Origin: Butyricimonas sp. Marseille-P3923
GTDB lineage: Bacteria > Bacteroidota > Bacteroidia > Bacteroidales > Marinifilaceae
NCBI RefSeq assembly: GCF_900184685.1
Contig: NZ_FXXL01000007.1
Span: forward strand, 620,001 to 684,000
Reading direction: 5' to 3'
Length of the DNA: 64,000 nt
Shown: positions 341 through 51,690 of the stretch, one piece after another
How positions within the stretch are numbered: the stretch's first letter is position 1
How the letters are laid out: each line of letters opens with the position of its first letter
Notes under the pieces: generated by a model
What the model was told of the DNA's origin: nothing
Database searches by the model: none
Seen by the model: the letters and a program-made list of their open reading frames with translations, nothing else
Position numbers and translations under genes: made by a program

Positions 341-490
341 GGTTTATAAGGTTCATAAGGTTTATAAAGTTCATAAAGTGACGGGTGTCCTTCGGACAAG
401 ATTAAAACGGCAGCTCATGCTGCCGTTAGTATAGCGCCCTGTGGGGGGCAATAACTTTATAAACCTTATAAACTTTATGAACTTTATAAC
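341..490. repeat. Family 1 inverted-repeat element, copy A
   Basis: Left arm (341-379) is made of 9-bp units of the type GTTYATAAR; right arm (454-490) is its inverted counterpart. The core holds TGTCCTTCGGAC and CGGCAGCTCATGCTGCCG-type small hairpins and a CCCTGTGGGG stretch. Six further copies are listed below. It sits between the divergent TetR and YitT genes. Confidence 0.85.
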
Positions 491-593
491 TTCCAAAGTG
501 TTAAATTATATTTTTACCCGAAGATATGACAAATGTCATGTTTTCATCCCCCGCCGGGGGGTATATTCGCGCCCGAAATTAAAATCAAAATCA

Positions 594-1517
594 ATGGTAA
601 ATATATTATTAAAAGAAAAGCCGTTTACCCGCGAGTGGTTCAAGACATACGCCTTGTTGGTCGGCGGGGCTTTCGTGTTAGCGCTGGGGTATAGTTGTTT
701 CATGGCACCGTACAAGATTGTTCCGGGAGGAATATACGGTATCACGATCGTGTTGCAGCACATGTGGGGATTTCCGATAGGTATGGCAGCACTCTGCTTC
801 AATTTGCCGTTGAGTTTAATCGGTTTACGGGTATTGGGTTCCGATTTCGGGGTGAAGACATTTATTTGCTTCATTCTGGTTGCCGTGTTCTCCGACAGTC
901 TTCCCGCCTTGTTGCTGACTTTGATGGGTGAACCTATCCCGGTGAGCGGCACGTTGGACCCGTTCAAATTGGGTGATGAAGTGTTGCTTGCTTGTATCTT
1001 CGGTGGGGTGGTCATGGGTATCGGCGTGGGCATGATACTGAAAACCCGCGCGTCCAGCGGCGGTACCGACGTGCTGTCGAATATCCTGCACAAGTGGACG
1101 CATCGCCCGCTGGGGCAGTTGCAGATGTCCGTCGATTCCTGCATCGTGGTTTTTGGTTTCCTCATGTTTCAGGATTGGAAAGTGCCGATGTATTCTTGGT
1201 TGTCCATATTCCTGATGGGAAAGACGATCGATATGATTCTGCAAGGCTTAGACAACGAGAAGAGTTTCTTTATAATCTCCGATAAAGTGGAGGAAATCCG
1301 CACCTATATATTGAACGACCTGCACCGCGGCGGTTCAATCGTGCCGCTTCAAGGGATGTACAATCGTGCCGAGAAGGAGATGATCATGACCATGATAAAC
1401 CGTCGTCAGATGGCTGTTTTACAACAAGCTATCTATAAGATTGACCCGAATGCTTTCGTGACAATCTTTGATGCACATCAGATACTGGGTGAGGGGTTCA
1501 AGAGGTTGGATTCATAG
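594..1517 (+). CDS. YitT family membrane protein (DUF161 + DUF2179)
   Basis: The protein of 307 residues has five to six hydrophobic segments in its first two thirds (for example ALLVGGAFVLALGYSCF and ACIFGGVVMGIGVGMIL), including the family-typical sequence RASSGGTDVLSNIL, followed by a soluble C-terminal DUF2179 domain (FFIISDKVEEIRTYILNDL, then RGGSIVPLQGMY and a basic end). YitT proteins are inner membrane proteins of unsettled function, some proposed as transporters. An in-frame ATG exists at 441, but that extension reads through the right arm of repeat copy A, so the start at 594 (MVNILLKEKPF) is preferred. It is monocistronic as far as can be seen. Confidence 0.85.
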   Translation: MVNILLKEKPFTREWFKTYALLVGGAFVLALGYSCFMAPYKIVPGGIYGITIVLQHMWGFPIGMAALCFNLPLSLIGLRVLGSDFGVKTFICFILVAVFSDSLPALLLTLMGEPIPVSGTLDPFKLGDEVLLACIFGGVVMGIGVGMILKTRASSGGTDVLSNILHKWTHRPLGQLQMSVDSCIVVFGFLMFQDWKVPMYSWLSIFLMGKTIDMILQGLDNEKSFFIISDKVEEIRTYILNDLHRGGSIVPLQGMYNRAEKEMIMTMINRRQMAVLQQAIYKIDPNAFVTIFDAHQILGEGFKRLDS

Positions 1518-1578
1518 AACTATACCTTGTCAGTTGATCAATCTTTTCGCTATAATTGGTACCTCCATTCCCGCCATC

Positions 1579-1633
1579 ATGAACGTATCATGAACCAATC
1601 ATGAACGTAAATTTGCGTTTATGATACGTTCAT
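1579..1633. promoter_or_regulatory. Inverted repeat with repeated ATGAACGTATC-type motif
   Basis: ATGAACGTATCAT (1579-1591) is the exact reverse complement of ATGATACGTTCAT (1621-1633), and related half-sites ATGAAC occur between them (1601). It lies in the 276-bp gap between the YitT-type gene and the small ORF at 1794; it may be an operator or a hairpin at the 3' end of the YitT-type transcript. No U-tract follows. The rest of this gap shows nothing else recognisable. Confidence 0.5.
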
Positions 1634-1793
1634 GAAATGTAAATGCTTGATACGTGTGAGTGGGTAACGGGGAGGTGATGGTTGTTCAATGGCTTGCAAG
1701 AAGTTGATATCGCTTTTTTAATCTTGTAACTTATAAATTGCTATAGGAAAATATTTTTATTAACTTGCGGCGTTTTTAACATGAACGTGAAAG

Positions 1794-2159
1794 ATGATGA
1801 ATAAACGTGACGTCGGTTACCGGGCTAAATTACGCTTTTCCCGTTGGAACAGGAAAGGGTATGCCATTTTCGCCTCGCTGGGGCGGGAGGTGTGCATCGG
1901 GCGGTTGGCGATACATATTTGTGAAATGGCGTTGCGGAAATCATCGAGAAAAGGCGTGATCGTGAATCTCGCGGAGGCGTTCGAACGAATGGTGACGACA
2001 TTCGAGGAATATGCGGAAAAGGTGACGCGGGCGTGTTGCCCGGTGGTTCCCGCGCGTGTCGATGCTATTAATACCGGGAGTTACGGGAATTATGATACGA
2101 GAATGAAGGTACGTCCGGCTGTAAAGGTGGACGTACCTTTTTTATTGAAAACAAATTAA
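1794..2159 (+). CDS. Small basic conserved-looking protein, unknown function
   Basis: 121 residues, strongly basic in the first half, with LRFSRWNRKGYAIFASLGR (residues 13-31) followed by EVCIGRL. I recall small Bacteroidales proteins carrying the same pattern RFSRW-RK-YA-FASLG, but know no function. The C-terminal third is cysteine- and proline-containing and looks low in conservation. The last codons run across a strong terminator hairpin (2106-2143), which is unusual and suggests that the end of the frame may be incidental or that the gene is trimmed at its 3' end. It lies upstream of bioB with a terminator in between, so it is probably not cotranscribed with biotin genes. A seven-codon frame (1781-1804) overlaps its start. 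Confidence 0.6.
   Translation: MMNKRDVGYRAKLRFSRWNRKGYAIFASLGREVCIGRLAIHICEMALRKSSRKGVIVNLAEAFERMVTTFEEYAEKVTRACCPVVPARVDAINTGSYGNYDTRMKVRPAVKVDVPFLLKTN
2106..2143 (+). terminator. Rho-independent terminator overlapping the end of the small ORF
   Basis: AAGGTACGTCC (2106-2116) and GGACGTACCTT (2129-2139) form an 11-bp stem with a 12-nt loop, followed by a T run to 2143. It lies inside the last 18 codons of the frame that ends at 2159. Confidence 0.8.
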
Positions 2160-2246
2160 TTTATGATTTATGAATTACGATTCGCGATTAGAAAAGCGTT
2201 AGCAGACGGGAGGGAATCATAAATCATAAATCCAAAATCTTAAATA
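2158..2246. repeat. Family 3 inverted-repeat element upstream of bioB
   Basis: A left arm with ATTTATGATTTATGAATTACG and a right arm with AATCATAAATCATAAATCC flank a short G/C-richer core. Related elements occur at 7930, 40676, 41078, 48049 and 59460. It ends a few bases before the bioB start. Confidence 0.75.
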
Positions 2247-2252
2247 GATCGG

Positions 2253-3215
2253 ATGATAGAGAAATTGAAACAGAAGGTCTTCGAGGGAGGACAGATCACG
2301 AGGGAGGAAGCGCTGGCACTGGCTGCCGCGGGGGATAAGGCGGCGTTGTATGCTGCCGCGGGGGAGATACGCGATCGGTTTGCCGGGCGTTATTTCGACA
2401 CTTGTTCCATCGTGAACGCGCGGTCGGGACGGTGCTCGGAAAATTGCAAGTGGTGCGCGCAGTCGGCAGTTTTCAAAACACACGTGCAGGAGTACGAGCT
2501 GATTGACGAGGAGAGTTGCGTGGAGTTGGCTCGATTGAACGCGAAATACAAGGTGAACAAGTTTTCGTTTGTCACGAGCGGGCGTGCGCTGTCGGACAAG
2601 AATATCGACCGCCTGTGCGGGTACGCCGAGAGGATAAAACGAGAGATGAATATCAACCTGTGTGCCTCGATGGGGTTGTTGAGCAAAGAACAGTTACGCC
2701 GACTGAAAGAGTCCGGTATAACCCGCTACCATTGTAATCTGGAATCGTCGCCGAGGTTTTTCGCCACGTTGTGCTCGTCACACACGCTAGAGGAGAAGAT
2801 ACAAACGATTCGTGCCGCGCAGGAGGTGGGGATGGAGGTTTGTTCGGGCGGGATTATCGGCATGGGCGAAACGATGGAAGATCGCGTGGAACTTGCCTTG
2901 ACGGTGCGAGAATTGGGCGTGAAGTCAATACCGATGAACGTGTTGAATCCCATACCGGGTACCCCGCTGGAGGGTATGCCGCCGCTCGCGGACGACGAGG
3001 TACTGACCACCGTTGCGGTGTTCCGCTTTATCAACCCGGACGCTTTCCTGCGCTTCGCGGGGGGACGCGTGCTGATCGCCCATATCGAGGAAAAAGCCAT
3101 AAAAGCGGGTATCAACTCCGCCATTCTCGGCGATATGTTGACCACCGTAGGCTCGAAGGTGATGGAGGACATGGAGAAGGTGCAAAGACTAGGGTTTACA
3201 ATTGAAAATGAATGA
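2253..3215 (+). CDS. bioB: Biotin synthase
   Basis: Radical SAM enzyme that inserts sulfur into dethiobiotin, the last step of biotin synthesis. The 320-residue length is normal for BioB. The [4Fe-4S] cysteines are C61, C65 and C68 in GRCSENCKWCAQS; the family also shows here in YHCNLESSPRFF, GGIIGMGET and IPMNVLNPIPGTPLEG, and in LRFAGGR near the C-terminus, which carries the arginine that binds the auxiliary cluster. It opens the biotin operon. Upstream lie a terminator and a family 3 repeat, so a promoter should lie between about 2144 and 2250, but none is obvious. No BirA-type operator was recognised. A family 1 element separates it from bioA. Confidence 0.97.
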   Translation: MIEKLKQKVFEGGQITREEALALAAAGDKAALYAAAGEIRDRFAGRYFDTCSIVNARSGRCSENCKWCAQSAVFKTHVQEYELIDEESCVELARLNAKYKVNKFSFVTSGRALSDKNIDRLCGYAERIKREMNINLCASMGLLSKEQLRRLKESGITRYHCNLESSPRFFATLCSSHTLEEKIQTIRAAQEVGMEVCSGGIIGMGETMEDRVELALTVRELGVKSIPMNVLNPIPGTPLEGMPPLADDEVLTTVAVFRFINPDAFLRFAGGRVLIAHIEEKAIKAGINSAILGDMLTTVGSKVMEDMEKVQRLGFTIENE

Positions 3216-3223
3216 ATGCAAGA

Positions 3224-3366
3224 GTTTATAAGGTTCATAAGGTTTATAAAGTTATAGACCGTCGTGGGGCGCTTTGTTCACGGCAGCTTGAGTTGCCGAT
3301 AAGCCTTGTCCGAAGGACACCCGTCACTTTATGAACCTTATGAACTTTATAAACCTTATAAACTTT
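3224..3366. repeat. Family 1 inverted-repeat element, copy B (bioB-bioA gap)
   Basis: 9-bp-unit arms at 3224-3256 and 3325-3366. The core, in the opposite orientation to copy A, contains CGGCAGCTTGAGTTGCCG and TTGTCCGAAGGACACCCG. It fills nearly the whole gap between bioB and bioA. Confidence 0.88.
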
Positions 3367-3374
3367 TAGTTATA

Positions 3375-4658
3375 ATGAATACGGCAGAATTATTGAAGTT
3401 TGACAGGGAGCACGTGTGGCACCCGTACACGTCGACGATAGATCCGCTCCCGGTGTACCCGGTGAAAAGGGCGGAGGGTGTTTATATCGAACTGGAGGAC
3501 GGTACGCGGCTGATTGACGGTATGTCGTCATGGTGGTGCGCGGTGCACGGGTACAATCACCCGGCGTTGAACGCGGCGGTCGAGGAACAGTTGAAGAGCA
3601 TGTCACACGTCATGTTCGGCGGGTTGACGCACCGTCCGGCGGTGGAACTGGCGGAAAAGCTGCTGGAAATGGCCCCGCGGGGGATGGATAAGGTGTTTTA
3701 CAGCGATTCCGGTTCGGTTGCCGTGGAGGTTGCCATGAAAATGGCTCTGCAATACTGGTACGCTGCCGGGAGAGAGGAGAAACGCTATTTCCTGACGATC
3801 ATGAAAGGGTACCACGGCGACACGTGGAATGCCATGTCGGTATGCGATCCCGTGACGGGGATGCACGGTATTTTCCGGGGGACGCTGCCGATGCAGTATT
3901 TCGTGCATCGACCGGAAGTGCGTTACGGGGAAGTGTGCCTGCCGGAACATATCGAGGAGTTGAAGCAATGCCTGCGCAATAATCACAACCGTATCGCTGC
4001 CGTGATACTGGAGCCGATCGTGCAAGGTGCCGGGGGGATGTGGTTCTACTCGGCGGACTACCTGCGGCAGGTGCGGGAGTTGTGTGACGATTACGGCGTG
4101 TTGCTCGTGTGCGACGAGATCGCTACCGGGTTCGGTCGCACGGGGAAGATGTGGGGGGTGGATCACGCGGGAATCGTGCCGGATATCATGTGTGTCGGCA
4201 AGGCACTCACGGGCGGGTACATGAGTTTTGCCGCCACGATGGCAACGGAGAAGGTGGCAACGTGGATATGCACGGGAAACCCGGGTGTCTTCATGCATGG
4301 TCCCACGTTCATGGGTAACCCGATGGCGTGTGCCGTGGCGAATGCCTCGCTGGACTTGATACGGGGGTATGACCTTACCGAAATGATCGGGCGGATAGAG
4401 AGCCAGTTGCGGGTGGATTTGCTACCCGCGCTCGAGTATCCCAACGTGGCGGACGTGCGCGTGTTGGGGGCTATCGGCGTGGTGGAGATGAAAGATGCCG
4501 TGAACATGGGTGTTCTGCAAGCGGCTTTCGTCAGAGAGGGGGTATGGATACGTCCTTTCGGGCGGCTCGTGTACGTTATGCCGCCGTATATTATTCGGGC
4601 GGAGGAACTGAGGCGGTTGACGTCGGCGTTGTTGCGGGTGATCAAGTATTTCAGGTGA
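3375..4658 (+). CDS. bioA: Adenosylmethionine-8-amino-7-oxononanoate aminotransferase
   Basis: PLP-dependent class III aminotransferase that makes 7,8-diaminopelargonate from KAPA using S-adenosylmethionine as amino donor. At 427 residues it has the usual length. Visible marks: HVWHPYTS near the N-terminus, [14 protein letters not shown], the substrate pocket [17 protein letters not shown], the cofactor-binding [12 protein letters not shown] and the Schiff-base lysine in [10 protein letters not shown]. An in-frame ATG at 3306 lies within repeat copy B and would add 23 repeat-encoded residues, so ATG 3375 ([13 protein letters not shown]) is chosen. It is second in the biotin operon. Confidence 0.96.
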
Positions 4659-4667
4659 GGCGGCAGT

Positions 4668-4870
4668 TTAATTCGCCTTCGGCGAGTTGCATTTGCCCGC
4701 GGGCAAGTTGCAGGTTACATTCGCCTGCGGCGAGTTGAAGGGGATTACCGGTGTTAGAGTTGAATGATGAAAGAATATAATAAGGTGAAGTTATTGGAAG
4801 CGGAAGCAACTTGCAACCTGCAACTTGCCGAAGGCAAATTTAACCTGTAACTTCGCCAAAGGCGAAAAAC
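4668..4870. repeat. Family 2 inverted-repeat element (bioA-bioF gap)
   Basis: Left side: three tandem units of about 21-27 bp, each with its own small palindrome (TTCGCCTTCGGCGAG, TTGCCCGCGGGCAAG, TTCGCCTGCGGCGAG) and linked by GTTGCAGGTTACA. Right side: inverted units (CAACTTGCAACCTGCAACTT, GCCGAAGGC, TTCGCCAAAGGCGAA). The last small palindrome ends about five bases before the bioF ATG. The 210-bp gap holds no gene. Confidence 0.85.
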
Positions 4871-4871
4871 A

Positions 4872-6029
4872 ATGAATAAGGAAAGGTATATTAATAAACT
4901 GGAGAAAATCAAGGAATTCGGGAATTACCGGATGTTGCGGGACGTGCAGCACAACGGTTTTCTGATTCATTATAACGGGCGGGAGATGCTGAATCTCTCG
5001 TCGAACGATTATCTGGGATTGTCTTCCAACCCGGTTTTATACGAGGATTTCAGGAAAGAAACCGACGTGAAACTGTTGAGTTTCAGTGCCGTGTCGTCCA
5101 GACTACTGTCCGGGAACCACGAGTATTACGGGTTGCTGGAGGACGATTTACGGGATTTGTACGGCAAGGAGGCGGCTTTGGTGCTGAACTCCGGGTATCA
5201 CGCGAATATCGGTATTTTGCCGTCATTGGCGGGGAAGCGGGATTTGATCGTGGCGGACAAGCTGGTGCACGCGAGTATCATCGACGGTCTGCGGTTGAGT
5301 GATGCGCAGATGTTGCGTTACCGTCATCTGGATTACGACCACCTGCGGGAACTTCTGTTCAATCACCGGGAGGAGTACGAGAACGTGTTTATCGTGACGG
5401 AATCGATATTCAGCATGGACGGTGACACGGCGGATTTGCAGGAGTTGTGCGACTTGAAGAAGGAGTATGACGCGTTCCTGTACGTTGACGAGGCGCATGC
5501 CGTGGGGGTGCGGGGTACGAACGGGTTGGGATGTAGCGAAGAGCAGGGATGTATTGACGATATCGACTTTATCGTGGGCACTTTCGGCAAGGCGTTTGCC
5601 TCGTACGGGGCTTTCGTGGTGTGTGACGAGTTGTTCAAGGATTACCTTGTCAACACGCAGCGGAGTCTGATTTTCACGACAGCATTGCCCCCGGTGGTGG
5701 TGGCGTGGACGCGGTTCGTGCTGAACCGGATGCCGGACTTTTTCCCGTATCGGCTGAAACTGACGGAGATTGCCGAACAATTGCGGACAACATTGTCCGA
5801 ACGGGGATTCGAGACACGGGGCGATTCGCATATCGTGCCTTTCCTATGCGGGAGCAACGAGAATAGCGTTTACATGTCCGAACTGTTTCAAGATAACGGC
5901 TTTTTCGTGTTGCCCGTGAGGTACCCGACCGTGCCGAAAAACGAGGCTCGTATCCGCTTCTCGCTGAATGCGGCGATACCGGAGGAGGATTACGAGTGTT
6001 TGAGGGAGTTCGTGGAAGTAAGTTTATGA
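4872..6029 (+). CDS. bioF: 8-amino-7-oxononanoate synthase (KAPA synthase)
   Basis: PLP-dependent alpha-oxoamine synthase, condensing pimeloyl thioester with L-alanine to KAPA, the first ring-assembly step. The 385-residue chain shows LNLSSNDYLGLS, the substrate loop SRLLSGNHEYYGLLE, the cofactor-stacking histidine region DKLVHASIIDG, DEAHAVGVRG and the PLP lysine in GTFGKAFASYGAF. Alpha-oxoamine synthases include glycine C-acetyltransferase, but the position between bioA and bioG makes BioF the clear call. Its stop codon lies inside the left arm of repeat copy C. Confidence 0.95.
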   Translation: MNKERYINKLEKIKEFGNYRMLRDVQHNGFLIHYNGREMLNLSSNDYLGLSSNPVLYEDFRKETDVKLLSFSAVSSRLLSGNHEYYGLLEDDLRDLYGKEAALVLNSGYHANIGILPSLAGKRDLIVADKLVHASIIDGLRLSDAQMLRYRHLDYDHLRELLFNHREEYENVFIVTESIFSMDGDTADLQELCDLKKEYDAFLYVDEAHAVGVRGTNGLGCSEEQGCIDDIDFIVGTFGKAFASYGAFVVCDELFKDYLVNTQRSLIFTTALPPVVVAWTRFVLNRMPDFFPYRLKLTEIAEQLRTTLSERGFETRGDSHIVPFLCGSNENSVYMSELFQDNGFFVLPVRYPTVPKNEARIRFSLNAAIPEEDYECLREFVEVSL

Positions 6030-6182
6030 AGTTTGTAAAGTTCATAAAGTTTATAAAGTTCATAAGGTTTATAGACCCCTGCGGGGCGCTTTGTCCACGG
6101 CAGCTTGAGCTGCCGATAAACGCTGTCCGAAGGACACCCGGCACTTTATGAACTTTATAAACCTTATAAACTTTATGAACTA
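6021..6182. repeat. Family 1 inverted-repeat element, copy C (bioF-bioG gap)
   Basis: The left arm begins inside the last codons of bioF; arms of GTTYATAAR units flank the core ACCCCTGCGGGGCGCTTTG, CGGCAGCTTGAGCTGCCG and TGTCCGAAGGACACCCG. Its core is nearly identical to copy D at 6926 but in the opposite orientation (I count about three differences over some 83 bases). Confidence 0.92.
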
Positions 6183-6218
6183 AAAAAAGTGCGAAGCTCG
6201 GTGGGTGGGAAAACAACT

Positions 6219-6264
6219 TGTAACTTGTAACCTGCCAACCTGTAACTTCGCCGAAGGCGAAAAA
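6219..6264. repeat. Family 2 half element before bioG
   Basis: AACTTGTAACTTGTAACCTGCC and a following unit end in TTCGCCGAAGGCGAA, six bases before the bioG ATG. It matches only the right side of the longer element at 4668. Confidence 0.75.
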
Positions 6265-6266
6265 CT

Positions 6267-6911
6267 ATGCGAAGACAGTGGATAACCAAAAAAGGGGGGC
6301 GGTGCTTGACTTTGTTCTTTTGCGGATGGGGGATGGACGAACGTGCCGTGCAACATCTGACGGGAACGGGGGACGTGCTCGCGTTCTATGATTACCGGGA
6401 TATAGCGGGGGAAGAAGCTCCCGTGACGGACGGGTACGATGAAATTCGTGCGGTGGCGTGGTCTATGGGCGTGTGGGCGGCGGCGGTGTTGCTGGAGCGG
6501 TGGAAGTTGCCCGTGACAAGACGGGTGGCGATCAACGGCACGGAGCGTCCCGTGGACGAGCGTTACGGGATTCTCCCGAAGCTTTACCTGTTGACGGAGC
6601 GGGGCATGGACGAGCGGGGACGGGACAAGTTCTTTGCCCGGATGCTGGCGGGACGGGAAGAGATGGCGAGATTCGGGGCAAATAAGCCTCTCCGGGAGTT
6701 GCACGAGCAGGTGGAGGAGTTGCGGGCTATCCGGGAGCAAGCGATGCTGATACGGCCGGAAACGCGGTGGGACAAGGCGTACGTGTCCGCGGGCGACGTG
6801 ATCTTTCCGCCGGAAAGCCAGCGGAACTGGTGGGACGGACGATGCGAAACGGTGAGCATAGAGGGAGGACATTACCCGTTTTACGTGTTGGATAATTGGG
6901 ATGAGATATGA
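6267..6911 (+). CDS. bioG: Pimeloyl-ACP methyl ester esterase, BioG type
   Basis: Alpha/beta hydrolase of the DUF452/BioG family, which releases pimeloyl-ACP from its methyl ester and so ends the BioC-initiated fatty acid detour. The protein has 214 residues. The probable catalytic triad is visible: S66 in AVAWSMGVWA, D177 in SAGDVIFPPE and H202 in EGGHYPF. The N-terminal FFCGWGMDE fits the oxyanion-hole region of this family. It takes the place of BioH. The gene is bracketed by two inverted, near-identical family 1 elements (6021-6182, 6926-7088). Confidence 0.9.
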   Translation: MRRQWITKKGGRCLTLFFCGWGMDERAVQHLTGTGDVLAFYDYRDIAGEEAPVTDGYDEIRAVAWSMGVWAAAVLLERWKLPVTRRVAINGTERPVDERYGILPKLYLLTERGMDERGRDKFFARMLAGREEMARFGANKPLRELHEQVEELRAIREQAMLIRPETRWDKAYVSAGDVIFPPESQRNWWDGRCETVSIEGGHYPFYVLDNWDEI

Positions 6912-6925
6912 TGGAAAGGGGGTTA

Positions 6926-7088
6926 AAAGTTTATAAGGTTTATAAGGTTCATAAAGTGACGGGTGTCCTTCGGACAATGTTTATCGGCAGCTCAAGCTGC
7001 CGTGGACAAAGCGCCCCGCAGGGGTCTATAAACCTTATGAACTTTATAAACTTTATAAACCTTATAAACTTTATGAATTTCATGAAAT
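6926..7088. repeat. Family 1 inverted-repeat element, copy D (bioG-bioC gap)
   Basis: Left arm of GTTTATAAG units, core TGTCCTTCGGACA, CGGCAGCTCAAGCTGCCG and CGCCCCGCAGGGG, right arm ACCTTATGAACTTTATAAAC and more units. It runs almost to the bioC start, and the ATG-containing unit ATGAATTTCATGAAATTTG just before bioC looks like a decayed extra unit. Confidence 0.92.
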
Positions 7089-7094
7089 TTGAAC

Positions 7095-7874: not shown

Positions 7875-7958
7875 AAATTGAAAATGAAAAATGAACTCCT
7901 CCGTCTGCTTCGAAGCCGGGAGGGAGTTCAATCTAAAATCATAAATCATAAATCATAA
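7856..7958. repeat. Composite family 4 / family 3 repeat (bioC-bioD gap)
   Basis: It begins with GAAAATTGAAAGTTGAAAA units that overlap the end of bioC, continues with a G/C-rich middle containing ACTCCTCCGTCTGCTTCG, and ends with AATCATAAATCATAAATC. The middle motif reappears inverted at about 11665-11690. Confidence 0.75.
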
Positions 7959-10450: not shown

Positions 10451-10454
10451 GGGG

Positions 10455-10775: not shown

Positions 10776-10800
10776 AGTTGTTTTCGTTAATGTTACAGGG

Positions 10801-10808
10801 CAAAGGTA
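10801..10808 (-). promoter_or_regulatory. Probable -7 element of the SMR gene
   Basis: TACCTTTG on the minus strand fits the Bacteroidota -7 consensus TAnnTTTG; no good TTG at the right distance upstream. Confidence 0.5.
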
Positions 10809-10859
10809 GGGCGTCGACGCGGGGAATTACTTGATATTTATCAATTAATCGACACGGGC

Positions 10860-10889
10860 TTGCGATTCAATTGTAAAAGTATAATTTTG
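10860..10889 (+). promoter_or_regulatory. Promoter of the Crp/Fnr gene
   Basis: TTG (10860-10862), 19-bp spacer, TAATTTTG (10882-10889): the Bacteroidota primary sigma consensus. The leader before the ATG at 10909 would be only about a dozen bases. Confidence 0.6.
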
Positions 10890-10908
10890 TGGAAAACTTG
10901 AAACAGAT

Positions 10909-11466: not shown

Positions 11467-11486
11467 CGGGCGGGTTAAAAGTTATT

Positions 11487-11690
11487 TTAAACTCCCTCTA
11501 TAAACAGAGGGAGAGCTGAGTTACTTACTGTCTTTGGTAAGATTCACTAGCTCCTCCTCTGTTTATAGAGGAAACCATCGATTAAGCGAGGGCAGAAAGA
11601 GAGCTTGCTCTCGGTTTGCCGAGCGGGAGCTGGTTCGAGACCGGCTTCCGGGCTCACTTGGATGCGAAGCAGACGGAGGAGTTTTTAGAA
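11487..11690. repeat. Multi-hairpin intergenic repeat (310-bp gap)
   Basis: CCTCTATAAACAGAGG (11495-11510) is answered by its reverse complement CCTCTGTTTATAGAGG (11556-11571). Then follow small hairpins around AGAGCTTGCTCT, CGGTTTGCCG, GGTTCGAGACC and CGGCTTCCG, and CGAAGCAGACGGAGGAGT, which is the inverse of the motif in the repeat at 7856. No protein gene is credible in 11467-11777; a weak TATCTTGC element near 11744 could serve the next gene. Confidence 0.65.
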
Positions 11691-28063: not shown

Positions 28064-28178
28064 TTTATAAAGTTTTTAAAGTCCGTGAAATATTTAGTTC
28101 GTAAAGTTTATAAGGTTTATAAAGTTCATAAAGTAAACTTGCTTTATGAACCTTATGAACTTTATAATTTTATAAACT
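28064..28178. repeat. Family 1 inverted-repeat element, copy G (coreless)
   Basis: Arms of GTTTATAAG/GTTCATAAA units (about 28097-28134) and their inverse (28142-28178), joined by a short A/T loop. The G/C-rich three-hairpin core of the other copies is absent. It lies between pta and ackA. Confidence 0.85.
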
Positions 28179-38173: not shown

Positions 38174-38175
38174 TC

Positions 38176-39206: not shown

Positions 39207-39374
39207 AGTTTATAAAGTTTGTAAGGTTTATAAAGTTTATAAGGTTCATGTACTCTTGCGAGGCACTTTGTCCACGGTAGCATAGCTGCCGATAAATCTT
39301 GTCCGAAAGCCTCCCGTGACCTTATAGACTTTACAAACTTTATAAACCTTATGAACTTTATAAACTTTACAAAC
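39207..39374. repeat. Family 1 inverted-repeat element, copy F (diverged)
   Basis: Arms of TTTATAAAG-type units at both ends; the core is decayed: CTTGCGAGGCACTTTGTCC, CGGTAGCATAGCTGCCG, TTGTCCGAAAGCCTCCCG. It separates holA and the DUF4294 gene on the minus strand, and its last arm overlaps the end of the DUF4294 frame. Confidence 0.85.
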
Positions 39375-40605: not shown

Positions 40606-40718
40606 TTGAAAATGGAGAATTGAAAATTGAAAATAAAAAAGGTTTGATGGTTAGATTTTTCGAGAGGGAGAGCACGAGCGGGGGAATCATAAATCTAAAA
40701 TCATAAATCATAAATATA
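40606..40718. repeat. Composite family 4 / family 3 repeat before rnpB
   Basis: Starts with GAAAATGGAGAATTGAAAAT units at the yqgE stop, has a middle with CGAGAGGGAGAGCACGAGC, and ends with AATCATAAATCATAAAT just before the RNase P RNA. Confidence 0.7.
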
Positions 40719-40721
40719 AAA

Positions 40722-41066
40722 AGGCAGTTCGTTCTATCGCTGTCCCGCGAGGGAGAGAGGAAAGTCCGGGCAACGCAGGGCATCGTGCTTCCTAACGGGA
40801 AGGTATTCGAAAGGATACAGTAGTGTAACAGAAAACAACCGTTCCGTTCGCGGAACAAGGGTGAAAAGGTGGGGTAAGAGCCCACCGGTATCCCGGGCGA
40901 CCGGGGTAGCCGTACGCCTCACGAGTTGCAAGACCATGTATACCGGCAATTAAGGTTTGCCCGATCGATGCCGGGGGGTAGGTCGCTAGAGCCGCGAAGT
41001 GATTCGCGGAGTAGATAAATGATAGAAACCGAAAGGTACAGAACCCGGCTTATAGAACTGCCTTTT
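40722..41066 (+). ncRNA. rnpB: RNase P RNA (bacterial class A)
   Basis: The catalytic RNA of RNase P, which makes tRNA 5' ends. The ends pair as the P1 stem (AGGCAGTTC and GAACTGCCT), followed by a T tract. The universally conserved core GAGGAAAGTCCGGGC lies near the 5' end, with ACAGAA, the P-region GGTAAGAGCCCACC, TAGATAAATGATAG and the 3' core AGAACCCGGCTTATAG. Length of about 345 nt is normal. It is flanked on both sides by family 3 repeats. Confidence 0.96.
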
Positions 41067-41077
41067 TTTATTTAAAA

Positions 41078-41187
41078 CTTATTAAGTTACGATTTATGAA
41101 TTACGATTTACGATTAAAAGAGCATAGGCATTTCGGTTAAATCATAAGTCATAAATCAAGAAATCATAAATCAAGAAATTAAAATAG
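41078..41187. repeat. Family 3 inverted-repeat element after rnpB
   Basis: ACGATTTATGAATTACGATT on the left, AATCATAAGTCATAAATC and AATCATAAATCAAGAAAT on the right, around a short core. It ends a few bases before the sdaA start. Confidence 0.75.
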
Positions 41188-41192
41188 AGGAC

Positions 41193-42401: not shown

Positions 42402-42466
42402 TTTCGCGGGGGAAACCATGCCGGGTTTAAACTCGTAGATCAAGAATCTAAAATGATACAGGTTTT

Positions 42467-43054: not shown

Positions 43055-43069
43055 TAAAATACAGAAACA

Positions 43070-44365: not shown

Positions 44366-44381
44366 TCACCTTCGGCGAGTT

Positions 44382-44440
44382 GAGGAACTACCACCCCTAG
44401 CCCCTCCTTACACCGAAGGGGCTAGGGGTGGTAGTTCCTC
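44382..44440. terminator. 24-bp perfect hairpin after pgi
   Basis: Left arm 44382-44405 (GAGGAACTACCACCCC...), 11-nt loop, right arm 44417-44440, perfectly complementary. No T tract follows, so it may be an intergenic repeat that also works as a terminator. A bit of family 2 (TTCGGCGAGTTG) precedes it, and family 4 units (TTTTCAATTTTCCATTTTC) follow up to 44474. Confidence 0.65.
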
Positions 44441-44524
44441 ATTTTCAATTTTCCATTTTCAACTTTCAATTATTTTGTAACTTTTCACTATACTTGTTCG
44501 TCATATCGATAAACAAGATTCTGT

Positions 44525-45691: not shown

Positions 45692-46169
45692 GGTGGAATA
45701 TAACCGGGCGGTGGATGCGTTCTCCGATGACGTGTATCGTTTTATACACAAGATGTGCAGGTCGAGGGAAATGGCGGAAGACATCGTGCAGGACAGTTAC
45801 CTGAAACTGTGGGAGGAGGTCGCCCGCGTCGATTACGGGAAAGCCAAGGCTTTCCTCTTCAGCACGTCCTATCACCGGATGATCGATATCCTGCGGCGCG
45901 AGAACAAGTTCGGGGACATCGAGTCCGTCGGCGACCGGGTGGAGGATACGTCGCCCGCCTACACGGGATTGCGGGAGGTGCTGGAATCGGCTTTGGCGAA
46001 ATTGCCGCCGGTACAGAAAACCGTCGTTCTGCTGCGGGATTACGAGGCGTATTCCTATCAAGAGATAGCGGAGATCACGGGACTGAACGAATCGCAAGTG
46101 AAAGTGTACATCTTTCGGGCGAGGGCATTTATGAAGGAGTTTATCCGTCGACCGGACGTGGTCGTTTAA
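45684..46169 (+). CDS. ECF-type RNA polymerase sigma factor
   Basis: 161 residues, with only region 2 (AFSDDVYRFIHKMCRSREMA, EDIVQDSYLKLWE, AKAFLFSTSYHRMIDILRRE) and region 4 (ALAKLPPVQKTVVLLRDYEA, YSYQEIAEITGLNESQVKVY), as in ECF sigma factors. It should steer RNA polymerase to a few envelope-related promoters. It lies between an exported protein and an anti-sigma-like membrane protein. Confidence 0.94.
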   Translation: MNRVEYNRAVDAFSDDVYRFIHKMCRSREMAEDIVQDSYLKLWEEVARVDYGKAKAFLFSTSYHRMIDILRRENKFGDIESVGDRVEDTSPAYTGLREVLESALAKLPPVQKTVVLLRDYEAYSYQEIAEITGLNESQVKVYIFRARAFMKEFIRRPDVVV

Positions 46170-46181
46170 GCGGGAGAAGAT

Positions 46182-47096
46182 ATGATAACGAGAGAGAATT
46201 ACGAGATTTATTTCATGGATTACCTCGACGGTGTGCTGCCGGGGGAGTGCCGCGAGGAGTTGCGGGCGTTTCTGCTGGCGAATCCCGATCTGGAGGAGTT
46301 GTTGGACGGGATGGACGGCGTGCGCCTGCAACCGGAACGGGATGTGTTCGGGAAAAAGGAAGAATTGAAGCGGCACGCGTCCGCGAGGGAACTGGCCTAC
46401 TATGCCATAGCCGAGGCGGAAGGCGTGATAACAGAGGAAGAGCGGCAATGGGTACGCGATAACGCGGGGGAGGATGAATTCGGGAGGGAAGTGGCGGCGT
46501 ACCGTGCGACACGGGTGCAACCTGACCGCGGGCAGGTGTTCGGGAGGAAAGACGCGACGCGTCGTTACCCGGCGGTGATCGTCTGGATGAAGCGTTACGC
46601 GGGAGTCGCCGCGGTTGCCATTTTTGCAGTGGTACTTGTTTTGTATATCACGAGGGAGCGGGAATTTTCCCCGGACAGCCTGCCGCAGCTTACGGCGCGA
46701 ACCGAACCGGTTTCCTTGCCGGAACTCCCTGCGCGGGTGACGGAACCGGAGAAGATGGAACCCCGGCAAGAGGATAAGCCGCGAGTTGATATCGTTCCCG
46801 TCACGACACCCGCCGTGCCGACGGAACGGGTGGAACCCGTCAACTTGATCGAGAGCGCGAAAAACATCGTCGTTCACGCCGAGATACTGCCGCCGCGACC
46901 GAATGAAATGCTGGTTTCCCCCTACGAGGGCGTGCGGGTAAGGCTGGAAGTGAAGGAACAGCGTCCCCGCCCGCTCCGCGTCATCGCTCCCGATCTCGAG
47001 AGTTCGGACAATATTCTCAGCTCGATCGTCAACGCGGGAAGAAACGTGGTGAGCCGATTCAGGAACAGGGAGGAAAAAGATGAAGATCGCCTGTAA
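46182..47096 (+). CDS. Anti-sigma factor-like membrane protein
   Basis: 304 residues. The N-terminal part NYEIYFMDYLDGVLPGECRE, with FLLANPDLEELLDG, is the cysteine-free anti-sigma fold common in Bacteroidota. One membrane helix lies at about 139-157 (AGVAAVAIFAVVLVLYI), and the rest (about 145 residues, proline-rich) would face the periplasm, ending in a basic and acidic tail. No FecR domain, so the input is probably not a TonB receptor. It begins 12 bases after the sigma gene. Confidence 0.8.
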   Translation: MITRENYEIYFMDYLDGVLPGECREELRAFLLANPDLEELLDGMDGVRLQPERDVFGKKEELKRHASARELAYYAIAEAEGVITEEERQWVRDNAGEDEFGREVAAYRATRVQPDRGQVFGRKDATRRYPAVIVWMKRYAGVAAVAIFAVVLVLYITREREFSPDSLPQLTARTEPVSLPELPARVTEPEKMEPRQEDKPRVDIVPVTTPAVPTERVEPVNLIESAKNIVVHAEILPPRPNEMLVSPYEGVRVRLEVKEQRPRPLRVIAPDLESSDNILSSIVNAGRNVVSRFRNREEKDEDRL

Positions 47097-47153
47097 CAAT
47101 CGGGGGTGTTCAACCGTCATGTGATAAAAGAAAATAATCTAAAGAAAAAGAAT

Positions 47154-48050
47154 ATGAAAAAGGTGGTTGTATATGTAATGTTTATGGTGTGCGTGCTGCC
47201 CGTGTCGGCACGGAGAGATACTGTCGTTATCCGCGACAACTGGCGCGTGGACACGATCCGGCAGAAAAGCGAAAAGGTCGATACCGTCGTCCGGGAATCG
47301 GAAATGATTATCTGGGACAACACGGTGAGAGAGTCGGGGAGAAGACCGAGGCGCTATTCCGAGGTTCCCTTGAAAACGGTAAGGGAGGAGAACCGGCGTG
47401 CTCTACGGCACCTCTTCCGGGGACACTGGAGCGGTTTCTATTTCGGGTTCGTGAATTTCGCCAACACGGACTATTCCAAGTACGGGGGGGACGATTTCAT
47501 GGAATTGGACTGGGGAAATTCTTTCGCCATGCAGTTCAATCTCTTCTCCCACGGCATGGGGGTGAACGAGCGGCGGACTCTCGGCGTGGTGACGGGAATC
47601 GGGTTCGAGTATCAACGGCTTTGTTTCGACCGGAATATCACGATACGTAAAGACGAACACGGTATGTTGCGCCCCCTTCCCTTGGACGAACTGGGAATCG
47701 GCAACACAAAAAGAAGCACTTTCAAGACGCTCTACATGACGATACCGCTTCTCGTGGAATGGCAATTCCCCGCGTCCGTGCACCGGAGAGCTTACCTGTC
47801 TACCGGGGTTGTCGGTGGCGTGCGGCTTCACTCGAAGACGAAAATCGTGTACAAGGACGAGAACGGCGACAAGCACCGGAAGAAAAACTCGGACAGCTAC
47901 GGCATGATTCCCTTGAAGGCCGATTGGACGGTACGTGCCGGGTATCGCGGCGTGTGCCTCTGGGGAAATTACACGTTGACCAACATGTTTAAAAAGAGCA
48001 AATCCCCTGAATTGCACCCGTACACGATCGGGGTAGGGTTCACGTTTTAA
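47154..48050 (+). CDS. Outer membrane beta-barrel protein of the ECF operon
   Basis: 298 residues from ATG 47154: signal peptide MKKVVVYVMFMVCVLPVSA, a charged periplasmic stretch of about 85 residues, and then alternating strands (GHWSGFYFGFVNFANTDY, VTGIGFEYQRLCFDR, LSTGVVGGVRLHSKTKIVY) ending in HPYTIGVGFTF. It is the usual form of a small barrel of the porin family with an N-terminal extension. The longer frame from 47106 lacks a signal peptide and is not used. Last gene of the operon. Confidence 0.8.
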   Translation: MKKVVVYVMFMVCVLPVSARRDTVVIRDNWRVDTIRQKSEKVDTVVRESEMIIWDNTVRESGRRPRRYSEVPLKTVREENRRALRHLFRGHWSGFYFGFVNFANTDYSKYGGDDFMELDWGNSFAMQFNLFSHGMGVNERRTLGVVTGIGFEYQRLCFDRNITIRKDEHGMLRPLPLDELGIGNTKRSTFKTLYMTIPLLVEWQFPASVHRRAYLSTGVVGGVRLHSKTKIVYKDENGDKHRKKNSDSYGMIPLKADWTVRAGYRGVCLWGNYTLTNMFKKSKSPELHPYTIGVGFTF

Positions 48051-48150
48051 TTTATGATTTATGATTTACGATTTATGATTGAAGGATTGCCGAAGCGAAG
48101 TAGTACTCCAATCATAAATCAAGAAATCGTGAATCATAAATCGTGAATCA
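48049..48150. repeat. Family 3 inverted-repeat element between convergent genes
   Basis: TTTATGATTTATGATTTACG at 48051 and AATCATAAATCAAGAAATCG at 48111, around a core with GCCGAAGCGAAGT. It spans the gap between the outer membrane gene and the convergent DUF6266-like gene and may act as a bidirectional terminator. Confidence 0.78.
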
Positions 48151-48822
48151 CGGGATCACCGGTTCGATAACTTCCGCTTTCACGTACCTGCTATCGGAGT
48201 ACGCGCTCCAGTCGGGCGACGTGAAGAACGGGTAGAGATGCACGGTTTCCGTTTCCGGGTGGGCGGAGTCGGGGAGGGCGATTCGCGCGAAACACTCGCC
48301 GCGGGTGAAGGATGTCATGATGAATTGCGGCGAATCGGGGCGCGAGTCATAGAAAAATCCCAGTGCCAGAGAGTCATTCGGGTTCGCTCGCCCGTACTCG
48401 CGGGCGGGTGCGTTCCAGTAGAGAAAAAACGTCCACCCCTCGCGGTTCACCCGCGTATCCCTCGGTGGCACGAGATCGCCCTTGCAGAAGTGGAAATCGG
48501 GAAAGTAATCCACGCCCTGCAACTTCAAGTCGAGCACGGGATAATTGAGCTTCCTGAAAATATCCAAGTAGGTTAGGCTGAAACACTCCCCGTACATGTT
48601 CCACGCGAAGTAGAGCACCGGGGAGAGCCGGAAAAAGTTGACAGGAAACGTTCCCGTTATCTCCATGGCGTCCCTCGCCACTTGTTGTTTCTCCGTGGCG
48701 GGTCGCTCCACTTTCTCCCGCTTGGCTGGCATGGCGCATAGTTTATCGTTCCGGTAATAATATCTTATCCCGTTCAGGATAAAACTCTTGCGCGTCGGGT
48801 CGGATTGATTTTTTCTTCCCAT
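48148..48822 (-). CDS. DUF6266-like protein
   Basis: 224 residues, no signal peptide. The N-terminal GIRYYYRNDKLCAMPAKREK, then RPATEKQQVARDAM, the central WTFFLYWNAPAREYGRANPN and the end VHLYPFFTSPDWSAYSDSRY follow the plan I recall for DUF6266 proteins of Bacteroidota (N-terminal PTEKQ motif, NDK/NDS-x-L--V-Y strand, C-terminal Y-x-F-x-S---YSDS-Y). No function is known. Divergent from the second such gene at 49238; the pair is separated by 415 bases. Confidence 0.5.
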   Translation of the reverse strand: MGRKNQSDPTRKSFILNGIRYYYRNDKLCAMPAKREKVERPATEKQQVARDAMEITGTFPVNFFRLSPVLYFAWNMYGECFSLTYLDIFRKLNYPVLDLKLQGVDYFPDFHFCKGDLVPPRDTRVNREGWTFFLYWNAPAREYGRANPNDSLALGFFYDSRPDSPQFIMTSFTRGECFARIALPDSAHPETETVHLYPFFTSPDWSAYSDSRYVKAEVIEPVIP

Positions 48823-49237
48823 GGCTATCGAATTAAACGGTTACACTAATCCCCTCTTTATCTCGTACCATGTAAAAATAAACAATTATTTTGAATTAAC
48901 AAAGTACTTATCAGAAAATGTTATCAACTTGTTAATAAGTTCTGCATGAGTTCTGCATAAGTAAGCCACGCGGGATACGACCGGTTTTAGGCTGTATATT
49001 GTTGTACACGTGTTGTTTACATGGTGTTTTACATAGTCGTGTGAAAGAGTGGTATTAAGAATTAAAAAATATTAATATTTAACATCAAATTCCATTGGAA
49101 ATGAAAATAATAGTTCTAACTTGTGATTGGAAAAGAACATAAATCTTCCCTGTAAATCGCGGAAAGATGCGCGTGCACTTCCTGTCCTGCCGGACGGTTA
49201 GTGCCGGACTTTTATTAACTGTTTAAAATTAAAAACT

Positions 49238-50287
49238 ATGAGAAAGAGAATTGTAGGATGCTCAAGCGTGCGAGGCACGTTGCTTGACCAAGTACATTAC
49301 CCCCACCCGTTTGAACCGGGTGTGACCGTGGTGCGCCTCTTGTCGAACAAGAAAGTGAAGCTGAACGAAACCGTGGCGAAGAACGATGCCGCCTTCGGCG
49401 GGTTGGGCAGGGAAGGCGGTTACCTGTTGCCGGGGGCGAAAGTGGGTTTCCCGTACACCGGGCGGGAGGCTTCCGGGCATTCCCGTTTCGTGGGCGTGAA
49501 CGCCGTGACGGGCGTGTCAACGGCGGTAAAGATAGACCCGGAAACCCCGTACGATCCCGAGCAGAGCGTGTCGAAACAATACACTTACCTGATCGATTAC
49601 CCGAACCTGATTCTTGCCGCGGGCAAAGTGCCGCCGATTGCCGTGACCGTGACGCTCGACAGGGAAGCGCGTAAAATTTCCTGCGTGCAGGCAGCGGACA
49701 CGACGTTGGGAACAAACCGTAACCCGGACGACGTGGGGTATTGCGTGTTATACGACCCGACGAGCAAAACGTGCATCGTGCAGCGATTGCGCGCGCGGTC
49801 GGAGGAAGGATCGACCTCGACGGCGATTCCCGCGAACGTCAATCTCGACACGCTTTTCGCTTACGTTTTCACCGCTCGCGCCAACGGGAAACCGACGTCC
49901 GATTCCGAGTGCAAGCTGCAAGGTGATTCCAACCTCGTGGCAATCAATCGTATCGCTAAAGATATGAAGTTGAAGTTCCCGCTTGCCGGGGCGATTGATA
50001 AACTGAATGCCGCCGTCGACATGGAACTGGCAAGACGGGCAACCGAACGCGAGCGACTCCGGGAGGCGGAGGAAGAAAAACGAGAAGAGGAGAAAGCGAG
50101 AAGGATAGCGAGCGGGGAGAACGCGGCGGTTGCCGCGGAGGAAAGGGACGCACTTCTTGATAGTATCCTCGATGACGTGTCCGGTGTCGCGGACGCCCCC
50201 GACGAACACGCCCGGCAATTCGACGAGAGAATGCAGGTACTCGCCGACACGATCTTCACCTTGAAGAAAAAGCACGAGAGCGGTTGA
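49238..50287 (+). CDS. DUF6266-like protein with C-terminal coiled coil
   Basis: 349 residues, no signal peptide. Residues about 110-235 carry TYLIDYPNLILAAGKVPP, PDDVGYCVLYDPTSKTCIV and LFAYVFTARANGKPTSDSEC, the same layout as in DUF6266 proteins. The last 110 residues form a strongly charged coiled coil (ARRATERERLREAEEEKREE) and an acidic tail. The N-terminal 100 residues are unlike the other gene. The 415-base gap upstream (48823-49237) is A/T-rich, has a doubled AGTTCTGCAT motif near 48940, and shows no other feature. Function unknown. Confidence 0.55.
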   Translation: MRKRIVGCSSVRGTLLDQVHYPHPFEPGVTVVRLLSNKKVKLNETVAKNDAAFGGLGREGGYLLPGAKVGFPYTGREASGHSRFVGVNAVTGVSTAVKIDPETPYDPEQSVSKQYTYLIDYPNLILAAGKVPPIAVTVTLDREARKISCVQAADTTLGTNRNPDDVGYCVLYDPTSKTCIVQRLRARSEEGSTSTAIPANVNLDTLFAYVFTARANGKPTSDSECKLQGDSNLVAINRIAKDMKLKFPLAGAIDKLNAAVDMELARRATERERLREAEEEKREEEKARRIASGENAAVAAEERDALLDSILDDVSGVADAPDEHARQFDERMQVLADTIFTLKKKHESG

Positions 50288-50307
50288 AATGTAACTTTTC
50301 AAACATG

Positions 50308-50335
50308 ATAAAGGTATGCCCCGGCATACCTTTAT
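50308..50335. terminator. Bidirectional terminator between convergent genes
   Basis: ATAAAGGTATGCC and its complement GGCATACCTTTAT (50308-50335) around two C: a strong palindrome with A/T-rich flanks on both sides. It overlaps the last codons of hydF on the minus strand. Confidence 0.8.
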
Positions 50336-51528
50336 TTCGTTTGGAAAACCTCCGTTGCCCGGTGGAATATCCCGTGCAGGTAGGCGATGGTCATTCCGTA
50401 GTTGCTGACGGGGATGCCGGCTTCGATGGCGGGTTGGAGGCGGTTTTTAAGTTGTTTGCCCGTGATCATGCAACCGCCGCACTGGATGACCATGGCGTAG
50501 TCGGTGATGGGGCGGGTGATGGCGTCCAGTCCCGCGATGAAATCGAATTGAAAGTTTTTGCCCGTGTAATCCTGTAACCAACGGGGGATTTTGTGCCGTC
50601 CGATGTCCTCGCATGACACGTGGTGGGAGCAGGATTCGAGCATGAGCACGCGATCGCCCTCTTGCAGTCGTTCTATCCGGGGAGTACCTTTCATGTAAGC
50701 GTCGAAGTTCCCCTTGTGGCGTGCCAGCACGATGCTGAAACTTGTCAGCGGTATTTCGGGCGGAACGAGTGCCGCTACTTTTTTAAATACTTGACTGTCC
50801 GTGATTGCGAGGCGGGGACGTATCCCGGTATTCGCGAGGAAACGGGTGATCTCTTCCGGTTGCAGGACGATGGCGGTGGCGTGGTTGTCGAGTATGTCGC
50901 GGAGCATTTGTACTTGTGGAAGGATCATGCGTCCGGCGGGAGCCTCGGAGTCTATCGGGGTGACGAGCAACACGATGTCACCCGGGGCAATCAAGTCGCC
51001 GACGAGCGATCGCGGGCTGTCGTTTTCCGCGTGCCACACGCTTTTCAAGGCATCCAGAACGGGAGTGGTATCCGTGTCGCGTGTCGAGAAGTCGATGACC
51101 GGACAACTGTATTCCCGCGCGAGGCGTTCCTTCAATGCCGGCGAGAGGGGAGCTTCGTCCTTTTTGTTGTGAATGATAAGGAAGGGGAGTTCCTGTTTCT
51201 TGAAACGCCCGGCGAGTTGCCGCTCGTGTTCCCCGAATTGATTGCCCGCGATGACAAGGATGGCGATGTCGGCTTGCGAGATGGCGTCACGTGTTTTCGC
51301 GACGCGTGCTTCACCCAGTGCGCCGGAATCGTCAACGCCTGCCGTGTCGATAAATATGACCGACGCGAAGCCGGGAATCTCGTAGCTTCTTTTCACGAGG
51401 TCGGTAGTCGTTCCGGCAACGTCCGAAACGATAGCGATATTCTGGCCTGTCAAGGTGTTGATCAAGGAACTTTTTCCACTGTTGCGGCGACCTAACAGGA
51501 TGATGTGTAGTTTGTTGTCTTTGCCCAT
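50332..51528 (-). CDS. hydF: [FeFe]-hydrogenase maturation GTPase
   Basis: 398 residues. HydF is the scaffold that, with the radical SAM enzymes HydE and HydG, builds and delivers the two-iron subcluster of [FeFe] hydrogenase. GTPase motifs: GRRNSGKSSLIN, TTTD in VAGTTTDL, DTAGVDD and IHNKKD. The iron-sulfur ligands are visible as C-x-H in LESCSHH and CGGC in VIQCGGCM. Neither hydE nor hydG is in this window. The organism should make H2 or use it. Confidence 0.94.
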   Translation of the reverse strand: MGKDNKLHIILLGRRNSGKSSLINTLTGQNIAIVSDVAGTTTDLVKRSYEIPGFASVIFIDTAGVDDSGALGEARVAKTRDAISQADIAILVIAGNQFGEHERQLAGRFKKQELPFLIIHNKKDEAPLSPALKERLAREYSCPVIDFSTRDTDTTPVLDALKSVWHAENDSPRSLVGDLIAPGDIVLLVTPIDSEAPAGRMILPQVQMLRDILDNHATAIVLQPEEITRFLANTGIRPRLAITDSQVFKKVAALVPPEIPLTSFSIVLARHKGNFDAYMKGTPRIERLQEGDRVLMLESCSHHVSCEDIGRHKIPRWLQDYTGKNFQFDFIAGLDAITRPITDYAMVIQCGGCMITGKQLKNRLQPAIEAGIPVSNYGMTIAYLHGIFHRATEVFQTK

Positions 51529-51536
51529 GGGGGAGA

Positions 51537-51690
51537 GTTTATAAGGTTTATAAAGTTTGTAAGGTTTATAAGGTTCATAAAGTTCATAAAGTAACGGGAG
51601 TTCTTCGGACAGTGTTTATCGGCAGCTCAAGCTGCCGTGGACAAAGCGCCCCGCAGGGGTCTATAAACCTTATAAACTTTATGAACTGTT
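51537..51690. repeat. Family 1 inverted-repeat element, copy E
   Basis: Arms of GTTTATAAG/GTTCATAAA units; core with TTCTTCGGACAGTG, CGGCAGCTCAAGCTGCCG and CGCCCCGCAGGGG, nearly identical to copy D (6926). It sits between the response regulator and hydF on the minus strand. Confidence 0.9.

Follow-up and report, generated by a model that had tools for sequence, protein, structure and literature searches.

Family 1 palindromic inserts between Butyricimonas cistrons may be gene-less relatives of IVP/S23p intervening-sequence elements

Introduction

What kind of element is the long inverted repeat that occurs seven times within 64,000 nucleotides of the genome of Butyricimonas sp. Marseille-P3923? 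The stretch in question (contig NZ_FXXL01000007.1, positions 620,001 to 684,000, forward strand) is referred to here, at its full length, as the window, and the repeat as family 1. A preliminary description made from the letters of the window had noted two arms around a core of three small hairpins, and had filed the repeat as a non-autonomous palindromic element of the miniature inverted-repeat transposable element (MITE) or repetitive extragenic palindromic (REP) type. The source genome is labelled G000 and five congeners of the genus Butyricimonas G001-G005; L numbers denote loci.

The intervening sequences (IVS) of 23S rRNA, e.g., that of Coxiella burnetii, are the published inserts with which family 1 is compared here. 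In an excerpt of PMC4990558 an IVS is given a 28-bp terminal stem, in some cases an S23p gene, excision by RNase III, and heptameric tandem repeats upstream of the S23p gene; the same excerpt calls the origin and function of the IVS unclear, and mobility by way of its own ORF only a theory. As far as that excerpt describes them, family 1 resembles the IVS in its complementary arms, long stem and arm tandem repeats, in the four-helix-bundle gene of the gene-bearing form, and in that no transposase is known; it differs in lying between protein genes, in having dozens of copies per genome, and in a conserved three-hairpin core that takes the place of the gene. Because the anatomy matches that of published intervening sequences, we read family 1 as gene-less relatives, between cistrons, of elements that carry the 23S rRNA-intervening sequence protein (IVP). 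Stated in full, there would be one class of inserts, with the IVP/S23p intervening-sequence elements as its gene-bearing members and family 1 as its gene-less part, a reading that we hold at about even strength. No rRNA was found at Rfam gathering scores in the window or in 20 further copy loci; family 1 copies lie outside rRNA, and we therefore speak of relatives and not of rRNA IVS. With its dozens of gene-less copies, its matched arms and its candidate partner gene, family 1 brings the question of IVS mobility within reach of a test, and arms that match those of an IVP gene hint at how an old class of bacterial insert spreads. Among the papers listed in literature searches, as judged by title or the start of the abstract, IVP genes between inverted tandem repeats, or family 1 elements, were not described.

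Results and Discussion

An IVP gene lies between family 1 arms

The arms of family 1 are inverse to each other, as had been described; they are not plain A/T-rich DNA, but inverted arrays of a tandem 9-mer, GTYYRTAAR, in which transitions are tolerated at fixed positions. Arms of this family surround a gene elsewhere in the source genome: the element at C2:605445-605865 carries a PF05635 gene for the IVP (Pfam 2.6e-35; PDB relative 2gsc, E 5e-10), next to a motif that we take to be guanylate kinase. The other family 1 copies were positioned between predicted ORFs. The IVP orthologues in G001, G002 and G003 (identity to the G000 protein 84%, 66% and 84%, respectively) have the same kind of arms; those of G002 are partly of a GTC type, which was also seen in 5 of the 6 gene-less G002 copies examined and in some G000 copies.

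The three remaining IVP genes of G000 stand between inverted arrays of AATTGAA, GTTGCAA and GATTTAT. All four arm types of the G000 IVP genes recur in the window, the three just named with 3, 3 and 10 hits, respectively, elsewhere in it; 13 foreign arm types gave 3 hits altogether. As separate observations, inverted pairs of GATTTAT- and GTTGCAA-type repeats, which resemble the arms of two other G000 IVP genes, occur in the window at 48050-48148, 59467-59587, 4666-4844 and 52906-53093, and the RNase P RNA gene (40721-41068) is enclosed by inverted GATTTAT-type 7-mer arrays (40685-41115).

IVP genes and their arms in relatives

PF05635 was present in 68 of 96 relatives, the source genome included. 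The IVP loci compared were the best-scoring ones of each genome among the matches listed plus 20 picked from the match list, several of them from congeners. An arm test was made on 50 loci, leaving out L271, in which no intact frame was parsed, and L233 and L243, which lie at contig ends; in 42 of the 50 the flanks of the IVP gene matched each other as inverted short repeats more closely than did any of the 15-30 control windows taken from that locus. The inverted-arm score was at least 14 at 28 of these loci, as compared with no more than 10 for 49 window genes away from family 1 and 7-13 for 12 other genes of the IVP loci. The arm repeat differs from one IVP locus to the next, and between genera the similarity of the IVPs is correlated with that of the arms (41 loci, r=0.337; none of 1000 permutations as high). 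Among the 8 IVPs with 60% or more identity to the Butyricimonas protein, 7 have GTYYRTAAR units at their sides; none of 71 other IVPs does. The 7 armed IVPs represent four independent loci, and the 8 include L222, a broken gene (73 residues aligned at 63%) without units; the count leaves out L273, L278 and L295, which are repeats of fetched loci, and also L291, which was not shown to be a repeat and has 0 units. The armed IVPs outside Butyricimonas are those of G046, G099 and G105, from three other families. No guanylate-kinase motif occurs in the stretches read from these three genomes (two of the stretches end at contig ends), and the G099 gene lies, as judged by eye, between ABC-transporter genes. 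IVP-element arms end within 10 bases of a stop codon in 32 of 66 cases and of a start codon in 16 of 52 (L273, L278, L279 and L295 left out), a weaker contact with stop codons than in family 1.

These associations bear on an alternative in which the arms come first, i.e., host replication and recombination would make short tandem repeats arise and turn over at gene ends throughout the Bacteroidales, with IVP genes and cores as passengers. Of 393 genomes of the order, 12 had exact arm matches (three units), the source genome among them (70 in G103, 30 in G095, 11 in G100), and the stretches read from G095, G100 and G103 hold 9-mer arrays without core or IVP gene, as passenger cores and genes would lead one to expect. 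Neither the link of one repeat unit to one IVP clade across four families nor the correlation between IVPs and arms would be predicted by such turnover; with the dynamics described below also considered, we think this alternative unlikely, though not far-fetched.

Several observations weigh against family 1 as a relative of IVP elements. The IVP element lacks the ~80-nt core. Of the 7 armed IVPs, 4 are orthologues at one inherited locus beside the guanylate-kinase motif, and no recent movement is therefore seen among these; a four-helix gene beside guanylate kinase is listed for Flavobacterium too (excerpt of PMC5524665). At the G046 gene the units of both sides point in one direction instead of being inverted, and the match in G105 extends over 58 residues. 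The best IVP of G103 (97% complete), the genome richest in the exact arm matches listed above, is 51-52% identical, with one GTYYRTAAR unit beside it, and G095 (70% complete) has no IVP match. At eight of the 50 loci of the arm test the flanks did not outscore the controls, and some of the 50 are from congeners that have the same arms. Inverted pairs within 450 bases were obtained in the window for only two of the four own arm types, GATTTAT being the sole one among the three types other than family 1; a repeat search found GTTGCA-like inverted pairs in the window too. A single further arm type was searched for gene-less copies, and it had matches in 7 of 56 family genomes, with 4 of 5 in its own genome at the IVP gene itself. 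On the other side, G004, with 8 short core rows, is without an IVP of the family-1-armed clade (a weak pointer, n=6 species), and in G005, where copies are weaker, the best IVP of the clade comparison reaches only 53%, which likewise points weakly in favor.

If family 1 belongs with the IVP elements, an element would be a filling enclosed by short tandem repeats in two inverted arrays (here 2-8 units of RGTYYRTAA); the filling may be a four-helix-bundle IVP gene, the three-hairpin core of ~80 nt or a short spacer of unrelated sequence. Such elements would settle at cistron ends, where transcripts may tolerate a long AU-rich stem, with the outer repeat typically touching the stop codon. The IVP would recognise the arms and could act in trans to help gene-less copies spread; the arms would be homogenised, and the core flipped, by template switching from one arm to the other, and RNase III might cut the stems of family 1. 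We put forward more tentatively, as a possibility on the doubtful side of even, a wider form of this proposal: that the IVP is the mobility or recognition factor of a widespread transposase-free class of Bacteroidota inserts with locus-specific inverted short-tandem-repeat arms, each IVP clade having its own cognate repeat, that gene-less palindromes spread in trans into cistron ends, and that the rRNA intervening sequences are the rRNA-inserted members of this class.

Copies in the window and size of the family

All seven copies of the preliminary description were found where it had placed them, in both orientations, and the core is common to six of them, the seventh consisting of arms alone (Table 1). 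The exact hairpin word TGTCCTTCGGACA or its complement occurs at 386, 3307, 6124 and 6964, CGGCAGCTCAAGCTGCCG at 6098 (reverse), 6985 and 51620, and CCCCGCAGGGG at 6076 (reverse), 7014 and 51649; the remaining window copies have variants of the three words.

Table 1. Family 1 elements of the window, the hairpins (hp) of the best copy, and the state of the matching sites in congeners.
Feature	Position	Strand	Core, stems and neighbouring genes	Site in congeners
Family 1 element	341..490	+	hp1, hp2 and degenerate hp3 in core; upstream of YitT-family gene	element-free in 5/5
Family 1 element	3224..3366	-	full core; radical-SAM/BATS (bioB-like) gene on one side, class-III aminotransferase (bioA-like) gene on the other	element-free in 5/5
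Family 1 element	6021..6182	-	full core; stop codon of class-I/II aminotransferase (bioF-like) gene inside first 9-mer	filled in G001 only; element-free in G002-G005
Family 1 element	6926..7088	+	full core; flanked by bioG and methyltransferase gene	element-free in 5/5
Family 1 element	28064..28178	.	arms only; acetate kinase and phosphotransacetylase genes on either side	element-free in the four read
Family 1 element	39207..39374	-	core degenerate	
Family 1 element	51537..51690	+	full core; hydF-like and sigma-54 regulator genes on either side	
Hairpin 1, best copy	6964..6976	+	stem GTCC / GGAC	
Hairpin 2, best copy	6978..7008	+	extended stem TGTTTA / TGGACA around CGGCAGC / GCTGCCG	
Hairpin 3, best copy	7014..7024	+	CCCC / GGGG	

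The core is not restricted to these loci but spread genome-wide. A pattern of three arm units (up to 3 mismatches) had 34 matches in the window and 0 in 100 shuffles. With copy 6926-7088 as query, BLAST against the source genome gave at least 95 rows (40 of 169 candidates scored), and a covariance model gave at least 147 rows in this 5.3-Mb genome, both strands counted (150 of 2293 candidates scored). Parsing of 90 loci of the source genome yielded at least 78 distinct two-armed elements, and a recognisable core was present in 51 of these. The stretch between the arms measured 4-102 bases (384 in one element), and in some elements it held hairpin 1 alone or an unrelated spacer. The ends are consistent from copy to copy; on the left, the base outside the first GTT was a purine in 75 of the 78. 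Copy 6926-7088, the one that was folded as RNA, gave -67.6 kcal/mol on the + strand (z -9.6; other strand, z -8.0).

A composite subtype was seen at the locus centres of L014, L018, L020, L022-L024, L085, L088, L089, L102 and L115: the family 1 core and arms are accompanied by a small GAGCTTTCAGCTC-like hairpin within one arm; except in L115, one or both sides also have an outer 29-bp hairpin resembling GGGCGAAAAGCGTTTTGACGCGTTTGCCC.

Ends, insertion sites and gene context

The statement that all copies lie between genes was incomplete, for in most cases the stop codon of a neighbouring gene is touched by the outer arm or lies within it. Gene context was taken from simple codon-score gene calls. 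The 78 elements were placed between codirectional genes in 59 cases, divergent in 11 and convergent in 7, with one unassigned. The distance from outer end to stop codon was -8..+5 bases in 47 of 74 cases and -8..+44 in 69, as compared with 8 of 81 start codons within -8..+5. The element itself may make part of this contact, since the arm gives TAA in one of its frames. At several sites it looks as if the old spacer was replaced and not split.

REP sequences near stop codons affect translation in E. coli. The position at stop codons would suit a host function of family 1, in which intercistronic hairpins shield or tune mRNA, as proposed for REP, and the IVP is the RNA- or DNA-binding protein of the regulon. 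Against such a function, core orientation had no bias with respect to the abutting gene (19 sense, 23 antisense; 27 and 30 with simpler gene calls). The five window sites read in congeners (341, 3224, 6021, 6926 and 28064; sites 39207 and 51537 were not met with in the stretches fetched) were filled in only 1 of 24 site-species states, which again argues against a host role. Together with what is reported below on flipping cores and on wobble pairs, this makes a host function improbable in our judgement.

The label of MITE or REP type was correct insofar as family 1 is dispersed, palindromic and gene-less, with consistent ends; filing under either name was not borne out. Family 1 shares with MITEs the small size, lack of coding sequence, terminal inverted repeats and high copy number, and inverted termini, both orientations, many copies and consistent ends would be produced by an ordinary MITE moved by an unseen DDE-type transposase. 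The ends of family 1 are, in contrast, arrays of tandem 9-mers. Target-site duplications, suggested earlier as a thing to look for, were not in excess: words shared by the left and right flanks of the 78 elements were no longer than in shuffled flank pairs. A 10-bp flanking direct repeat, ATGATGGAAA, is found at 6926-7088 alone among the parsed copies (0.05 such expected). That no transposase is close by was confirmed, with 0 among 17 proteins scanned near copies, and none with matching ends was found, the genome-wide search being for Y1_Tnp (PF01797) only. With these findings we consider movement as an ordinary MITE very improbable.

The same search bears on dispersal by TnpA-REP as a family of REP sequences or bacterial interspersed mosaic elements (BIME). 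These are like family 1 palindromic and intergenic, placed at gene ends, often between codirectional genes, and without a general target-site duplication. Family 1 differs in its length (~115-170 bp) and long AU-rich arms, and the source genome (99.99% complete) had 0 matches to Y1_Tnp, the domain expected of a REP-associated tyrosine transposase (RAYT); the search was positive in 5 of 14 control genomes. We give next to no credence to a REP/BIME origin.

Orthologous sites, a core flip and the two arms

Orthologous family 1 sites exist between species. For G001 and G003, 15 sites had both flanks matched, with flank identities of 93-99% (one-flank matches and core-less pairs were left out of the orientation comparison). 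Core orientation was kept at 14 of the 15 and inverted at one, L188/L202, where the two cores share copy-specific features, are mutual best matches at 0.90 identity, and include the inner arm unit; this is a core inversion in place, and provides an example from bacteria in which an entire hairpin core has flipped. In more distant pairs 8 of 18 rows were inverted (the rows are not independent), and for several of these pairs core similarity fails to separate a flip from a new insertion. That cores can flip does not fit a host function; that function would be consistent with the conservation of unit positions 1, 2, 6, 7 and 8, which had 3 changes per 541 sites as compared with 2.5% in the flanks (G001 and G003, 14 sites).

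The GTT or GTC class is common to both arms of an element (r=0.81), and the arm class at one site differs between species. An excerpt of PMC8604942 describes template switching between inverted repeats, at hairpins, which homogenises the arms and inverts the spacer between them; the inversions in that source are of 2-5 bp and in yeast genes, and that of family 1 takes in the whole ~80-100 bp core plus inner arm units. By this likeness, template switching is the likely cause of the arm homogenisation and the core flip in family 1. Mirror copying between arms was also sought in the Y4 and R9 variants, and no signal was obtained; unmirrored variants at these positions are unlike what arm copying alone would leave, and they temper the template-switching reading. 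Arms that share a class which changes from species to species, and a known process that homogenises them, would also be in keeping with tandem repeats that turn over by host processes. Identical units stand side by side less often than expected (24 of 418, as compared with 14.3%), and this speaks against such turnover.

Covariation in the core

The cores were aligned for covariation (76 sequences from five species, of 92 cores listed). Within the three hairpins both-sided changes occurred in 14 of 20 pairs (8.3 ± 1.7 when shuffled; no more than 10 in slid controls), and there were 39 covarying cells (15.2 when shuffled; no more than 22 in slid controls). Selection at the RNA level was suggested at one stage by two conserved U-G columns that looked strand-specific; this candidate was dropped, since elsewhere GU and AC are balanced (69 GU and 89 AC over the 20 pairs, the two columns excluded). 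With no general strand bias in the wobbles, covariation need not mean RNA function, and a host function acting on the transcript loses a point. Balanced wobbles are what is expected if copying at the DNA level maintains the palindromes. The result is a caution for other palindromes of this sort, in which processes acting on the DNA can produce covariation in the absence of any RNA function.

No Rfam family reached its gathering score at any copy in the window or in 20 copy loci, and with relaxed E-values at L001, L018 and L220 no family rose above its gathering score at a copy; the only Rfam match in the window was RNase P. A cobalamin riboswitch lies at L220 1-134, upstream in an IVP locus.

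Occurrence in relatives

Among named genomes, a pattern search for the core matched only Butyricimonas synergistica (the source genome may be excluded there). The covariance model had matches in 8 of 59 genomes, i.e., the source genome, the five congeners, and two genomes of another genus of the same family with two short rows each. At one setting the rows numbered 44 in G002, 34 in G005 and 8 in G004, the last mostly short. In ~370 bases around 20 foreign arm loci, tandem arrays or arms were seen and the family 1 core was not. At L146, L152 and L156, from three other families of the order, the 9-mer forms tandem arrays of ~18, 23 and 40 units, respectively, with no core in the stretch examined.

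Other repeats in the window

Two further repeats were noted. Window positions 11491-11656 represent another dispersed repeat, of which ~82 bp recur at 88-93% identity: at many places in both G001 and G003, and in G002 at least once. At 44381-44441 a loop of 11 nt separates the halves of a perfect 25-bp inverted repeat.

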